64,000 bases of DNA. Source: Prochlorococcus marinus str. MIT 9211 (GTDB lineage Bacteria > Cyanobacteriota > Cyanobacteriia > PCC-6307 > Cyanobiaceae). Made by a program: the position numbers and the translations under genes. Each line of letters opens with the position of its first letter. Within the stretch, counting starts at the first letter, position 1. Shown piece by piece: positions 33,241 to 41,320 of this stretch. The stretch lies in NCBI RefSeq assembly GCF_000018585.1, contig NC_009976.1, positions 1 to 64,000 on the forward strand. The letters are read 5' to 3'. Below the pieces are notes generated by a model. The model was given only the letters and a program-made list of their open reading frames with translations, did not search any database and was not told where the DNA came from.

Positions 33241-34398
33241 TCATACTCTATTTTCTTTAAAAAGTATTTTTGAAGCGGTAGCTACTCCAGTACCAATTGG
33301 CTCTTTTAAAGCCCCTAATTGATTAAGAGCAGATTCTATAGATGCTATAGCTGTAATAATGTCACGATCATTGACAAATCCAAGATGACCTATGCGAAAG
33401 ACTTTTCCTTTTAAGTGATCTTGACCACCTGCAAGTAATATATCAAAATTTTCTTTTACTACTTTTCTTATTAGATCAGCATCAATATCTTTAGGCTCTA
33501 CTGCAGTGATGGAAGGACTGCCATACCCAGGGGCTGCAAATAATTTCAAACCAATAGCTTCCATTGCTTTTTGGGTTGCTTCTTTATGTCTATTATGACG
33601 ACTAAATATCTTTTCTAAACCTTCCTCTTTCATCATATTTAACGCTTCTTCTAATGCAAAATATAGATTTACACTAGGCGTAAAAGGATTGCTATTTTTA
33701 TCACTAGTTTTTTTGTATGACTTCAGGTTTAAATAAAAACTTGGTAAATCTGAGCGTTCACTTGCCTTCCAAGCTCTTTGATTCATTGCAACAAAACTGA
33801 GGCCAGGAGGCATCATGTATCCTTTTTGAGAGCCAGATGCAAGAACGTCTATGCCCCATTCATCCATAGGTACATTGCATGCACCTAAACTAGTAACACA
33901 GTCTGCAATAGTGATTGCTTTTTCGTGTTTTCTAACCTCTTTACTAATTGCCTCTAGATTGTTAATAACTCCTGTAGATGTTTCTGAGTGGGTAAGTATT
34001 ACGGCACGAATTTCATTATCAGCTTGAAGTATATTTCTGAACTTTTCAGGTTCTAATGGTTCACCCCAATTGGACTTAATAATTTCAACATTGAGTCCAT
34101 AGGCCTTGGCAATTTTCACCCATCTTTCACCAAATTTTCCATTTTCTCCACAAATAACTTTATCCCCTTTTTTTAAGGTATTAATGATTCCTGCTTCCAT
34201 GGCAGCAGTCCCACTGCCAGTAATTGTTAAAACATCCCCTTCTGTTTGATGCAGCCATTGCAGTAGCTGAGTTGTTTTTTTGACGATTTCTTGGAACTCT
34301 GGAGTGCGGTGACCAATGGGATGTTGACTTAGAGCTTTTAGAACTCTCTCTGGCACTGGGGTTGGTCCAGGGATCATTAGAGCAAGTTTTTCTTTCAT
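33241..34398 (-). CDS. Class V aminotransferase (alanine/serine--glyoxylate type)
   Basis: PLP enzyme of 385 residues. The N-terminal MIPGPTPVPERVLKALSQHP and IGHRTPEF are hallmarks of the alanine-glyoxylate / serine-glyoxylate / soluble hydrogenase small-subunit group. SGSQKGYMMPPG gives the PLP Lys192. ADCVTSLGACNVPMDEWGID carries the PLP-ring Asp. In cyanobacteria it is assigned to photorespiratory glyoxylate transamination. The substrate cannot be fixed from sequence alone. Divergent from cbiD. Confidence 0.92.
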   Translation of the reverse strand: MKEKLALMIPGPTPVPERVLKALSQHPIGHRTPEFQEIVKKTTQLLQWLHQTEGDVLTITGSGTAAMEAGIINTLKKGDKVICGENGKFGERWVKIAKAYGLNVEIIKSNWGEPLEPEKFRNILQADNEIRAVILTHSETSTGVINNLEAISKEVRKHEKAITIADCVTSLGACNVPMDEWGIDVLASGSQKGYMMPPGLSFVAMNQRAWKASERSDLPSFYLNLKSYKKTSDKNSNPFTPSVNLYFALEEALNMMKEEGLEKIFSRHNRHKEATQKAMEAIGLKLFAAPGYGSPSITAVEPKDIDADLIRKVVKENFDILLAGGQDHLKGKVFRIGHLGFVNDRDIITAIASIESALNQLGALKEPIGTGVATASKILFKENRV

Positions 34399-34454
34399 CG
34401 CCTAGGAGGGGGGCCAAACAGTTATCTTAAAAAGCTATCAAGGGAATTCACTTT

Positions 34455-35621
34455 ATTTCTAATTCATCTTCTGATTCGAGAGGTTTTACACTGCCAGTAT
34501 GGGTCGCAGCAGCAGCAAAGGGTGCTGCTGAAGCTATGGCAGGAAAGGCTTTTTGCTCATCCCAGAAGATTCAACTGCCAAACACAAAAGAATTCATAAA
34601 TGTCCCAGTTACTTCAGCTGGTTCGTTTGTAAATGCTCAAAAAGCGATGGGGATTAGTCATTGCGACCCTGGCTTATGTCTTGATTTAACTAGAGGATTA
34701 GAAATATGGGTGATGTTGGAATATGAAACATTGGACGATGAAAAGGATATAGAACTTTCTGTAGATTCCTGGTTAAAAATAATAGGTGGTTTTGGTGTTG
34801 GAAAGTTTGAATCGAATGGAGAGATTTGTCTGTCAGACTTTGCCAAACAACTTTTATATTTGAACCTTTTACCATTTAAAGAAAAAGGCCGGAAGATAAA
34901 ACTGGAAGTTATTTTTCCTGAAGGACAAAGCTTGGCTGAGCGAACTAGTAATGCCGCTTTTGGTGTCGTTGATGGATTGGCGTTGATTGGTACTCAAGCA
35001 GAAGTACAAACTAGCGCTTCTCCTGACCAACTTCATCAATCTCTTGATGAGTTGCGAAATCAATGCTCCAGTCAAACTTTTGAAGGTGCTTTGACTTTTG
35101 TCATTGGAGAGAATGGATTGGACTTAGCCATTCAATCTGGATTGAATCTTCAACCAATCATAAAAACTGGTAATTGGTTAGGCCCTTTAATAGTTGCTGC
35201 TGCAGAAGAACGCGTTAGTGAACTTTTATTATTTGGTTATCATGGAAAATTAGTCAAACTGGCAGGAGGTATATTTCATACCCACCATCATTTAGCAGAT
35301 GGTCGATTAGAAGTGCTTACTGCTTTAGCAGTGAAGGAACGTATTCCTTTTGACTTAATTAAATTATTAGCTCAGTCTGCTTCCATTGAATCAGCATTAT
35401 TGATATTAGAAGAGCAAGATCCTTTAGCTGCTAAAAAACTTTGGCTGAGATTGGCTAGAGAAGTTGAGAAGAGAAGCCATGAATATGTTAAACGTTATGT
35501 TTCCTCGTCTATAAAGATAGGAGCTATTTTGTTTGATCGTAAAAGACAATTACGCTGGGCAGGACCAATAGGTCTGAAAAAAGTTAATGCGCTTGGCGTA
35601 ACTCTTGAAGTTTTGTCTTGA
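34455..35621 (+). CDS. cbiD: Cobalt-precorrin-5B C1-methyltransferase CbiD, apparent non-canonical start
   Basis: Methylates C1 in anaerobic-type cobalamin synthesis. The first canonical start in frame is ATG 34536 (361 aa), but that would remove the family N-terminal motif. Codons upstream, open back to a TAA at 34428-34430, read [20 protein letters not shown], matching the CbiD G-[YF]-T..AAAKAA signature. No ATG, GTG or TTG occurs in any frame between 34399 and 34497. An ATT at 34455, with AAGGGA ten bases before it, would give [17 protein letters not shown] and 388 residues. Other family marks are intact: [26 protein letters not shown]. The start is inferred. The gene overlaps the extended frame of guaA only out of frame. 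Confidence 0.85.
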
Positions 35622-35661: not shown

Positions 35662-37251
35662 ATGTCTTCTGACTCACTGCTTAAAAGCCAAAGGAGCCCC
35701 TCAATAGTCATCCTTGATTTTGGCTCACAATATTCTGAATTGATAGCTCGACGAATTAGAGAGACAGAAGTGTATTCAATTGTTTTGAGTTACAGCACTT
35801 CAGCAGCAGAATTACGCAAATTAGCTCCCAAAGGCATCATTTTGAGCGGAGGTCCTAGTTCAGTTTATACAGCTTCAGCACCTCTATCTGATCCTGAGAT
35901 TTGGGATTTGGACATTCCCGTTCTTGGTGTTTGTTATGGGATGCAGGTAATGGTGCAACAGTTAGGTGGACATGTAACTGCTGCAGTTGGTAAGGCTGAG
36001 TATGGTAAAGCACCTTTGCATGTTGATGATCCAACTGCATTGCTCACGAACGTCGAGAGTGGATCGACAATGTGGATGAGTCATGGCGATTCTGTAGATA
36101 AACTTCCGAGAGGCTTTGTTCGTTTAGCCCATACAAGCAATACTTTAGAGGCTGCTATCGCTTTACATACCAAACGTTTCTACGGTGTTCAGTTTCATCC
36201 AGAAGTTGTTCATTCAACGCAAGGGATGGTAATGATAAGGAATTTTGTTTATAACATTTGCTGTTGTCAGCCTGATTGGACAACCAGCACTTTTATCGAT
36301 GAAGCAATAAGTACGGTTAGAAGTCAAGTAGGAGATAAAAAGGTTTTGCTTGCTTTATCAGGAGGTGTAGATTCTTCAACCTTAGCTTTTCTACTTAAGC
36401 GTGCTATTGGTGATCAATTAACTTGCATGTTTATTGATCAAGGTTTTATGCGAAAAGGTGAACCTGAGTTTTTGATGGAATTTTTTGATCAAAAATTTAA
36501 AATTAATGTTCAATATATTAATGCGCGTGAGCGCTTTATTTCTAAACTCCAGGGAATCTCTGATCCAGAGGACAAAAGAAAAGTTATAGGCAGGGAATTT
36601 ATTCGTGTTTTCGAGGAAGAAAGTGAACGCCTCGGACCTTTTGACTATCTTGCGCAGGGCACCCTATATCCAGATGTTATAGAAAGTTCAGGGACAAATT
36701 TAGACCCTAAAACTGGAGAAAGAATAGCTGTGAAAATTAAGAGTCATCATAATGTTGGTGGCCTACCAAAGGATCTTCAATTTAAATTAGTTGAACCTTT
36801 AAGAATGTTATTTAAAGATGAGGTAAGGAAAGTAGGCAGAGCACTTGGACTACCTGAAGAAATAGTTGGTAGACACCCTTTTCCTGGCCCTGGCTTAGCA
36901 ATAAGAATTCTTGGAGAAGTTACTGATGAGAAATTAAATTGTCTACGTGATGCAGATTTAATCGTTCGTGAGGAAATTAATCGAGCAGGTTTATATCATG
37001 AAATATGGCAGGCTTTTGCTGTTTTATTGCCAGTCTGCTCTGTTGGTGTCATGGGTGATCAACGTACTTATGCATGGCCGATTGTTGTGAGATGTGTTTC
37101 TAGCGAAGATGGCATGACAGCTGATTGGTCACGGTTACCTGATTCACTTTTGCAAATTATTTCTAATCGAGTAGTGAATGAGGTTAAGGGCGTTAATCGC
37201 GTTGTTTTAGATATAACAAGTAAGCCACCTGGAACAATTGAGTGGGAATAG
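35662..37251 (+). CDS. guaA: GMP synthase (glutamine-hydrolysing)
   Basis: Converts XMP to GMP. The 529-residue protein combines a class I glutaminase (Cys91 in GVCYGMQ, His179 and Glu181 in VQFHPEV) with an ATP pyrophosphatase domain ([15 protein letters not shown]-loop near 233-238) and a dimerisation domain ending [20 protein letters not shown] 35662 gives the usual cyanobacterial length; an upstream in-frame start would overlap cbiD and adds an unrelated N-terminus. The 3' end of guaA is a known integration site for genomic islands, and an integrase gene follows here. Confidence 0.97.
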
Positions 37252-37472: not shown

Positions 37473-38945
37473 ATGGGTTTCCGTGGAAACAATGAGCGTA
37501 CCTTCGCTGAGTACGTTGAATTAGATATTGCTGTGAATGATGACTCACCTAATGCTTACATCTATAAAAGATTAGACAGCGAAACTAATAAACCAGTTAG
37601 AGAAAGAACTTGGTATGTAGGTATCCCCATTCCAAACAAATGTAATGGGAAAAGATTATCTCTTCGTACTTCCGATTTATCTAATGCGAAGAAAAAAGCA
37701 CTCCAAAAAGTAGTGAATATTATGTCTGACCTAGATCAAGGTGTTGATGTATGTGGAAGTAAGGTTCAAGTAATGATTGATGAGTTCCTTTCCAAGAAAT
37801 TCATCAATGTACGTCCTGAAATGATGGGTAAAAAGGAAGGTGGTAGTAAAAGTATTACTAAAGATAGGTATGACAATATAAAAGGAAAACTGAAAAATTA
37901 CTTTATTCCTTTTGTTGGTGCTAATACTATTGCTACTAATCTAAAACCTAAGGAGTTTTAGGAATGGGAATATTGGAGAAGGCAAGAAGAAAACTGGGCA
38001 GGTGTAGGTAAAAAGAAAAAAGCACCTTGTCAATCAACTATTGGTGATGAGATTACTTTGTTTCGTGAGGTTTGGAGATGGGGAGTCAAGAAAGGATTCA
38101 TCAGATCATCATTAGATGTCCCGTTTGATGATCATAATTTCATTGAAGATGAAAAAGTAAAAAGGGATACTTGGGAATTGAATGAATGGAATGAGTTCCT
38201 AAAAAGAGAATGTGATTGGTATGCCTTAGAACAAAACTCTGAAGATCAAGATCGTGTTTGGGAATCATTTATCGCTCATCAACTCATTCGTATTTGTGCT
38301 TGCTCTGGACTTAGACCTAAAGAATGGTCTTTATTGAAGTGGAAAGATGTAAAAGATTATCCAAATGAAGATTCTATTGATGAAGAAGATAAGTTGGCGA
38401 TTGAAATGATTACTCATCCATCAACTAAAACTGGACAAAGAGAAGCACATTGTACTGGTGGTATCTGGTTCCGAAACATCTATGAAAAGACAAAGTTCAA
38501 AAGTAAAAATGATTGGATATTTACTGATTTAGAAGGCAATAGATTAGAACCTGATTGGTTCAGCGACATATTCAATGGGGAAGGTAATTGTAATGGACTT
38601 ATAGAATTTACTAATCAATATAAATTGAAAGGAAAAGAATTAGTTCCTTATTCTTTGAGGCATTTTTATGCTTCTCAATCCATATACGATGAGGTTCCTG
38701 AAGATATTATCGCTGACAATATGGGGATAACTAAAACCAGATTGAATAGATCATATAAACATTGTTTTTTGAGGGTACGAACTAAGAGATTATTCAGTAA
38801 AAAAGGAAGTCAATTTCCTATAAAACAAATGAGAACTTTTGGTACTGGTCAATATGCTTTCTTTACTGGAACTATGAAACAAAAAGACCCATCTTCTAGT
38901 CAAAAATCTAGAAAATTTGGTCTTAGTTTATCTCGTTTGAAGTAG
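37473..38945 (+). pseudogene. Tyrosine recombinase/integrase interrupted by an in-frame TAG
   Basis: Site-specific recombinase of phage-integrase type. The frame opens at ATG 37473 and is broken by a single TAG at 37959-37961 after KPKEF. It continues without a shift as EWEYWRRQEENW to 38945, 490 codons in all. The first part holds the arm/core-binding region. The second holds the catalytic residues: Arg in ICACSGLRPKEWSLLKW, box II PYSLRHFYASQS (Tyr replaces the usual first His), and the likely nucleophile Tyr in RLNRSYKHC. Without read-through, the C-terminal piece would start at ATG 38058 at best and lack DNA-binding sequences. A strong terminator follows at once. Confidence 0.88.
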
Positions 38946-39229: not shown

Positions 39230-41320
39230 CTACTGATTCTTATTGGAATGACCTTTTGAAGAGTTTATATGAACTATCATTGAGAGAAGGTCTGTTGAAA
39301 TCATAATCGCTCCTTCTTTGCTTAGGTGGTCAGAATCACTGTATAAATAAGTATTTTCTTTTACCACATAGCAGTTTTTTTTGTCGCAGAATTTATCAAA
39401 CGGATCGAAAATATAAATGTTACTAACTTCCATTGCCAGTGCATTCATCGCTTCAAGTATGTGCTTTCTTTGTTTTTGGAGAAAATCCTTATCAGTTTTC
39501 TGACAGATGATTCTTATTGATGGTCGGAACCATTGTGGTGAACACAGTTCAGCATTAAAACCTGGATGCTGCGGGAGTGGAGCAACCAATATTAGAGAGG
39601 CATTGGCATCGTTCAATTTGCTTGCAAGTTTCTTGGAGGTATTTATAAAGTCTGAGAGGTTTTTGTCAACAGTATTTCTTGAACGTTCAGAATACTTCTT
39701 GATTTGGAATCTATGCTTTCCACCGTATCCAAAATGAGAGTTTAGATATGATGTTGCGACCAGGACTGATCCGCTACTCCTTCTTTTCATCTTGTCAATC
39801 ATCGTCTTGATAATTGATGACTGAACCTCGTAACAGTATTTTCTATTAGTCTCACCTTGGGGAGGGAAGGCACATCCATCTCTGCTATGAGAAAAAACAT
39901 CGTATTGCGATGTAGATGCAATCACCTCGCTAATGGGAAAGATCGCGAGCGAATGACTGTCTCCGCTAAAGGCAACTAGCGGTCTTTCACTTTTTGCTGA
40001 CAAACAGTTATCAATGAATTGAGTTGTGATCTTATTTGCACCTACCAAGGCATCATTTTCTTTGCTGTCGGAACTATGGCAGTCTTTTGCAATGCGCCCA
40101 GTAATATCTCCTTTGAACTCTAATGGTTTTGTGATGGTGTTAGTAAAGTCCTCACCACTATAGAGTTTTCCTTTGAGCGGTTTGCTAAGGGCAACTAGAC
40201 CCGCAGAAAGAGTAACCAACAATCCTCCGCCGATCATCAATGTTTTCCATCGTTTTCCAAACCAGTTGCCCTTTCGTAGCGGAGTTTCGATCCATAGATA
40301 GGAAGCATTTGCTAATCCAAACATCAGAACGATCTGGAATGGAACTGACCACCAATGAATTCCGATTGTCCAACGACTAATGGAAAGGACACCCCAATGC
40401 CATAGATAGAGCGAGTAAGATATTAGACCTATATAAACGACTTTGGGATTGGTGAAAAATGTGAATGCTGTTGTTTGTTTCCTCAAAGAGGCGATAAGAA
40501 CGGAAGATAGAGCAACAACTGCAACTGTTGATGCTGCTGCCCAAGACATCGGCAAATACATCACCCCAACAATCAATGCTAAAACCATTAGGGGCGGTAT
40601 CTTCGCAAGTAAGTACTCGATCGATTTTCGTTTCTGAAATCCAATAAAAAGTAAGCAACCTGATGCTATCTCCCAGAACCTGGACGGCATTAGGAAATAT
40701 GCTGCTGATTGTTTGATTGGATAGAGGTAAAGGAAACCAATCAATGAGGCAATTGTTAGTGCTCCAACTGTCAGGAATAGGTTACGAGAACCATTTTTCG
40801 TTTGTCTGCTAAACCCAGAAAACCAAATCAGAAATGGGAATAGGATGTAGAACTGCTCTTCCACACCAAGAGACCAAGTGTGTGTGAATACATTGAGTTC
40901 TGTTGATTGGGCAAAGTAGTCAGTTGATCGTTGGAAGAGATATATATTAGATAAACCAAATAATGAAGTCAGACCAGTTTGTAGTGATACGTTTGGTATT
41001 GGATTGAATAAGCAGATCGCAATACTTGTGATGAAGACAAAAACTGATAGTGCTGGCACTAATCGCTTGATCCTTCGTTCGTAAAATCCGCTGATGAAAT
41101 CCTTGAAGTTTTTACTGGGTCTTTGATAAAGAGATGATGTTATAACGAATCCTGAGATAACAAAAAAGATATCAACACCGAGATATCCACCAGGTAAGAT
41201 GTCTTTGTTGAAGTGATTGATGATAACGGTTACAACTGCAAATGCTCTTAGACCATCAATCTCTGAGCGGTAACGACTTTTTATGGCTGATTTATTTTCT
41301 TCGATATCTATTGACATCAT
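39230..41320 (-). CDS. Membrane acyltransferase with C-terminal SGNH domain (OafA/OatA-like)
   Basis: Large 696-residue surface-modifying enzyme. The N-terminal acyltransferase-3 domain (about 15-350) starts RYRSEIDGLRAFAVVTVIIN, has GGYLGVDIFFVISGFVIT, ERRIKRLVPAL and TWSLGVEEQFYILFPFLIWF, with about ten membrane spans. A periplasmic SGNH hydrolase-like domain (about 430-690) follows, with VAFSGDSHSLA (nucleophile Ser) and DSDHLSKEGA (Asp-His). Such proteins O-acetylate LPS O-antigen or peptidoglycan. Base composition looks more GC-rich than the surroundings, which with the adjacent integrase suggests horizontal gain. Changed surface acetylation could affect phage adsorption or grazing (inference). 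Confidence 0.9.
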   Translation of the reverse strand: MMSIDIEENKSAIKSRYRSEIDGLRAFAVVTVIINHFNKDILPGGYLGVDIFFVISGFVITSSLYQRPSKNFKDFISGFYERRIKRLVPALSVFVFITSIAICLFNPIPNVSLQTGLTSLFGLSNIYLFQRSTDYFAQSTELNVFTHTWSLGVEEQFYILFPFLIWFSGFSRQTKNGSRNLFLTVGALTIASLIGFLYLYPIKQSAAYFLMPSRFWEIASGCLLFIGFQKRKSIEYLLAKIPPLMVLALIVGVMYLPMSWAAASTVAVVALSSVLIASLRKQTTAFTFFTNPKVVYIGLISYSLYLWHWGVLSISRWTIGIHWWSVPFQIVLMFGLANASYLWIETPLRKGNWFGKRWKTLMIGGGLLVTLSAGLVALSKPLKGKLYSGEDFTNTITKPLEFKGDITGRIAKDCHSSDSKENDALVGANKITTQFIDNCLSAKSERPLVAFSGDSHSLAIFPISEVIASTSQYDVFSHSRDGCAFPPQGETNRKYCYEVQSSIIKTMIDKMKRRSSGSVLVATSYLNSHFGYGGKHRFQIKKYSERSRNTVDKNLSDFINTSKKLASKLNDANASLILVAPLPQHPGFNAELCSPQWFRPSIRIICQKTDKDFLQKQRKHILEAMNALAMEVSNIYIFDPFDKFCDKKNCYVVKENTYLYSDSDHLSKEGAIMISTDLLSMIVHINSSKGHSNKNQ

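Follow-up and report, generated by a model that had tools for sequence, protein, structure and literature searches.

Where does translation of cbiD begin in Prochlorococcus marinus str. MIT 9211? In the window, which comprises bases 1–64,000 of a single-contig genome of 1,688,963 bp, the plus-strand cbiD frame is open from 34431 to 35618, between an in-frame TAA (34428–34430) and the stop codon at 35619–35621. The first canonical start codon in this frame is ATG 34536–34538, with no ATG, GTG or TTG before it. An earlier, sequence-only reading of this stretch had proposed that the gene begins upstream of any canonical start, and had noted that no ATG, GTG or TTG occurs in any frame between 34399 and 34497. 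Both statements are borne out, with frame and coordinates right: plus-strand canonical codons are absent from 34399 to 34498, the first one being an out-of-frame ATG at 34499. Based on comparison with homologous loci, we propose that translation very probably starts at ATT 34455–34457, as the local form of an AUH start codon (AUC, AUU or AUA) shared by much of Cyanobiaceae. The corresponding coding sequence would span 34455–35621 and encode 388 amino acids plus stop.

The identity of the gene is clear. By Pfam, NCBIfam and fold it is cbiD, encoding a predicted cobalt-precorrin-5B C1-methyltransferase. The match to Pfam CbiD (PF01888) scores 169.7 bits against a cut-off of 25 and begins at residue 17 of the open frame (34479), corresponding to profile position 3. 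The match to TIGR00312 (NCBIfam CbiD) scores 247 bits against a cut-off of 200. In a fold search, the AlphaFold model of the protein (mean pLDDT 88.6, residues numbered from ATT 34455) matched the solved CbiD structure 1sr8 with a Z-score of 18.3 (234 residues aligned from residue 8 on, rmsd 7.8), and the next match had a Z-score of 6.9. A PDB profile search also finds 1sr8, and a PDB search with the single cbiD sequence returned no match. The fold search brought up beta-carbonic anhydrases as well (Z below 7), which we took to reflect a common arrangement. Thus, in sequence and fold the protein is like the rest of the CbiD family (PF01888/TIGR00312; 1sr8), and what is unusual here is the start codon only.

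The most conventional solution would be that CbiD starts at ATG 34536, the first canonical codon in the frame, and that the similarity upstream of it is a relic. The structural model and the family alignment make this exceedingly improbable. In the model, residues 1–8 are disordered (pLDDT below 50), residues 11–40 have pLDDT values of 94–98, and residues 13–28, encoded by 34491–34538, form a confident helix. The last codon of this conserved first helix is ATG 34536 itself (residue 28), so a start there would delete the helix along with roughly 20 positions at the beginning of the Pfam CbiD match. Moreover, T12, L13, P14, A19, A21, A23 and A24 are conserved in at least 90% of 50 aligned CbiD sequences, outgroup cyanobacteria included. 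Among the rows listed, only the window and L082 have ATG at this codon. Pfam match, alignment and helix model therefore agree with the earlier claim that the in-frame codons ahead of ATG 34536 encode the conserved CbiD N-terminus, and no canonical start is compatible with that N-terminus.

We asked whether such a gap between homology and the first canonical codon is common in the window. The control set consisted of 53 non-overlapping window ORFs having homologues in five other genomes. For cbiD, homology extends 35 codons upstream of the first canonical codon, and the next largest value for any ORF is 10; cbiD is the only one of the 53 with homology reaching at least 15 codons upstream of any canonical start. 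Since cbiD stands alone in this respect, the missing canonical start is not a matter of chance. A misread base concealing an ATG, which the sequence-only reading had named as a possible refutation, was ruled out as well, because both other genomes of the same genus in our comparison carry ATT at the same codon (three of three with the window's own).

To compare start sites between genomes, we numbered codons backwards from the T of the TLPVW motif, which places ATT 34455–34457 eleven codons ahead of the motif (codon -11). The window's genus and most Prochlorococcus lineages have ATT or ATC at codon -11. The other refutation envisaged earlier, an alignment of homologues favoring the later ATG, was run and points to ATT 34455 instead. 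The choice of this ATT, with AAGGGA upstream of it, as the best candidate thus agrees with the homologues, and the AAGGGA (34440–34445) lies nine nucleotides before it, with an anti-Shine–Dalgarno duplex energy of -5.5 kcal/mol. Another near-cognate codon might serve in its place, chiefly ATT 34446 (codon -14), listed earlier as the second candidate, or ATC 34437. ATT 34446 is in frame, and ATT at codon -14 also occurs in L014 and in the group of strains referred to below as HL Prochlorococcus. Against it, the close relatives L082, L001 and L002 have AAT at codon -14, and the AUH codon shared among relatives is codon -11. In addition, AAGGGA abuts ATT 34446, leaving no Shine–Dalgarno spacer. 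We therefore regard a start at one of these other codons as very unlikely, and the second candidate is not upheld.

The AAGGGA fits a pattern seen in the codon -11 group, to which the window belongs: 57% of its 88 loci show Shine–Dalgarno-like pairing at or below -4 kcal/mol, versus 13% in coding windows and 11% in shuffles. Among the 27 loci without a canonical codon outside this group, which are of Synechococcus and Cyanobium types, such pairing was found in 4% versus 38% of coding windows. A Shine–Dalgarno site common to all lineages was accordingly rejected, as it is confined mainly to the codon -11 group. A second plus-strand motif, AGGAGG at 34404–34409, had been described as having no start near it; the divergent gene on the minus strand has its ATG five bases away, and the motif is most probably irrelevant to cbiD.

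How widespread is the near-cognate start? We collected 283 cbiD loci, 256 from Cyanobiaceae and 27 from other cyanobacteria; removal of exact duplicates left 198 distinct Cyanobiaceae loci, none being dropped for length. In a first classification, 43 of the 198 had no canonical codon anywhere between the in-frame stop and the motif. All but one of these have ATC or ATT at codons -14 to -8 (42/43), and the remaining one has ATA at -11. When the range was set to codons -20 to -4, a canonical start was absent from 58 of the 198 loci, and 54 of these 58 have ATC, ATT or ATA at codons -15 to -8. The exceptions are L063, L261, L267 and L279, each of which has a canonical codon further up according to the first classification. 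From the in-frame stop to codon -4, 46 of the 198 loci lack a canonical codon yet have an AUH codon (38 ATC, 6 ATT and 2 ATA). The frequency of AUH is well above expectation: after dereplication, it was present in 42 of 46 loci without a canonical codon, compared to a mean of 18.1 and a maximum of 28 in 2000 shuffles. In frames +1 and +2 the corresponding counts are 25/46 and 9/46. Codon choice is distinctive too. In AT-rich (low-GC) loci, ATC accounts for 40 of 78 codons at the start site versus 73 of 715 internal isoleucine codons.

The distance to the upstream stop bears on a further alternative, in which a canonical start lies further upstream and the cbiD frame is reached by frameshifting or readthrough. 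Some relatives, such as L082, do have an in-frame ATG further up. In the window, however, 34399–34498 holds no canonical codon in any frame and the in-frame stop at 34428 intervenes; in the 46 relatives that have AUH and no canonical start, the stop is at most 12 codons before the AUH codon in 33 cases (at most five codons in 5). Furthermore, the ORF opened by the upstream ATG of L082 would enter the divergent ORF by 116 bases. We consider this alternative extremely unlikely. As an observation in its own right, the ORF obtained in L082, a genome of the window's genus, by calling its first canonical ATG (1381–2682) extends those 116 bases into the divergent aminotransferase ORF and is a likely annotation trap.

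The phylogenetic distribution of start types was surveyed on a tree of 119 non-redundant proteins built quickly with FastTree (94 Cyanobiaceae rows and 25 outgroup rows). Twenty outgroup rows start with ATG and four with GTG or TTG; in the last one, L205, ATG occurs only at codon -3. AUH without a nearby canonical codon is found in 27 of the 94 Cyanobiaceae rows, spread over branches of Cyanobium, Synechococcus and Prochlorococcus. With the crude labels used, start type changes at least 16 times on this tree, where support falls below 80 for 46 of 116 inner branches. One genus, g35, contains both forms at codon -12, ATC in 11 of 15 genomes and ATG in 4; over the first 300 nt, the members with ATG differ from those with ATC by more than 36%.

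At the AUH codon even the individual bases are preserved. We compared pairs of loci, using each locus once, requiring both members to carry AUH at the same offset and excluding 11 LLI-type rows. At 5–15%, 15–25% and 25–40% divergence, the AUH codon was identical in 36/36, 30/30 and 30/31 pairs, whereas internal Ile–Ile codons, a control conditioned in the same way, were identical in 171/195, 111/140 and 67/104 cases (Fisher p = 0.014, 0.002 and 0.00013, respectively). The ten neighboring codons, not conditioned on a shared residue as the AUH codon and its control were, were identical in 26–65% of pairs at 25–40% divergence, making the AUH codon a one-codon island. Two other tests, based on codon positions and on synonymous changes before versus after the codon, gave no separation in loci without a canonical codon (11 pairs, p = 0.80 and 0.56) or in HL loci (17 pairs, p = 0.40 and 0.76). 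An earlier, unrestricted version of these tests leaned the expected way, but it mixed in LLI rows whose start is probably elsewhere.

The same island speaks to the possibility that ATC/ATT is kept as a DNA or RNA regulatory element, the real start being elsewhere. Such a role might be suggested by the gap of only 56 bases between the divergent gene and the proposed start, and by HL strains, in which the bases following ATC also hardly vary. Nevertheless, the conservation peak coincides with exactly one in-frame codon and the neighbors are much lower. ATG takes the place of AUH in the four g35 genomes, and the structure of the leader RNA is ordinary (folding z 1.27, nothing unusual). We find a regulatory element highly unlikely. 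A consensus promoter scan of 34200–34700 gave no site.

HL and LLI are used here as clade names that we presume to apply. In HL Prochlorococcus (35 distinct loci), ATC is retained at -11 and an in-frame TTG is also present at -4, an alternative start to which initiation there may have moved. In HL loci (e.g. L003, L095 and L100), the bases from ATC on, ATCGTCAGCTCTTC, are near-invariant among the 35 distinct loci, and this invariance exceeds the amino-acid requirement. LLI Prochlorococcus have TTG at -4 and GTC, GTT, CTC or CCC at codon -11; the LLI-type rows L085, L086, L087, L096, L099 and L113 show GTC, GTT or CCC at -11 together with TTG at -4. Because the Ile codon at -11 is lost and an in-frame TTG is available at -4, a canonical TTG start may have taken over in LLI. 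Overall, the near-cognate start codon is conserved among relatives, though lost in LLI Prochlorococcus.

At the level of sequence, the absence of a canonical start, the conserved N-terminus and the base-for-base conservation of the AUH codon are established, and the homologue comparisons support the earlier interpretation of the start site. That the non-canonical start is common to much of Cyanobiaceae could not be seen from a single sequence.

How might such a start work? Across much of the family, AUC, AUU or rarely AUA would occupy the start site in place of AUG. In the window, AAGGGA would help ribosome binding ahead of ATT 34455, and initiator tRNA would read ATT 34455–34457 as (formyl)methionine. 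Yield would be lowered because the third base mismatches the anticodon. IF3 would be expected to discriminate against the AUH start, as it does for infC, pcnB and sigR. The cell would likely benefit by making little CbiD, with an upper limit on its amount, and the level might follow IF3 activity or growth state. Its retention across much of the family suggests that the odd start is put to purposeful use, probably keeping CbiD scarce.

To our knowledge, dependence on a start codon outside the set of ATG, GTG and TTG is rare among bacterial genes, and the best-studied cases are regulatory. The E. coli genes infC, which encodes IF3, and pcnB have AUU start codons, and infC is autoregulated by its own product. 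Like them, cbiD would be a chromosomal gene starting with an AUH codon, one base off AUG. In contrast to the autoregulated infC, cbiD is a predicted B12-pathway methyltransferase gene, with AUC most frequent at the start site. An AUU start was looked for in this genome's own infC, which turned out to start with ATG, so an IF3 autoregulation loop of the E. coli kind is not evident here.

Streptomyces sigR offers another parallel. sigR has a GTC start that is repressed by IF3, and its replacement with a canonical codon leads to overproduction of the protein (PMC5472188). The sigR start is also described as conserved across the lineage, overlooked by gene callers and preceded by a Shine–Dalgarno sequence (PMC5472188). 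cbiD resembles sigR in the first two respects, and its codon -11 group, the window included, has a Shine–Dalgarno-like site in front as well. It differs in being an enzyme gene with an AUH codon, whereas sigR encodes a sigma factor and combines GTC with a very strong Shine–Dalgarno sequence, AGGAGGTG; moreover, many cbiD family members have no Shine–Dalgarno sequence, and IF3 control is carried over to cbiD by analogy. It is from IF3 repression of the sigR GTC start that we infer weak, IF3-sensitive translation of cbiD. Our literature searches, which covered open-licence PMC papers, brought up no mention of a non-canonical cbiD start. Judging from the comparisons above, cbiD would join infC, pcnB and sigR as a gene with a conserved non-canonical start.

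That a metabolic enzyme retains AUC or AUU in so much of a family speaks for weak initiation having been selected over the long term. Going further, the family-wide AUC/AUU might represent a standing translational brake on CbiD, through which (pseudo)cobalamin synthesis would be coupled to IF3 activity; selection against AUG would have maintained this brake from an early ancestor within Cyanobiaceae onward. This is a tentative idea, and we lean against it; if true, it would concern the ocean's most abundant phototrophs. The start is relevant to how levels of a B12-synthesis enzyme are set in a streamlined genome with few regulators. The family also provides a natural set of ATC, ATT, ATA, ATG, GTG and TTG variants at one start site for comparison. 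On the practical side, gene callers limited to ATG, GTG and TTG would make CbiD too short or extend it wrongly in many genomes of picocyanobacteria.

As for the genomic neighborhood, cbiD is flanked upstream by a divergent class-V aminotransferase gene on the minus strand (33241–34398, starting at 34398) and downstream by a guaA-like GMP synthase gene on the plus strand (35662–37251, ATG 35662). Behind guaA, in the plus-strand region 37473–38945, ORF 38058–38945 has a weak phage-integrase match; 37473–37961 and this ORF may be the first and second halves of a split gene. An acyltransferase-SGNH gene follows on the minus strand (39230–41320), and the two together resemble an island at the guaA end.
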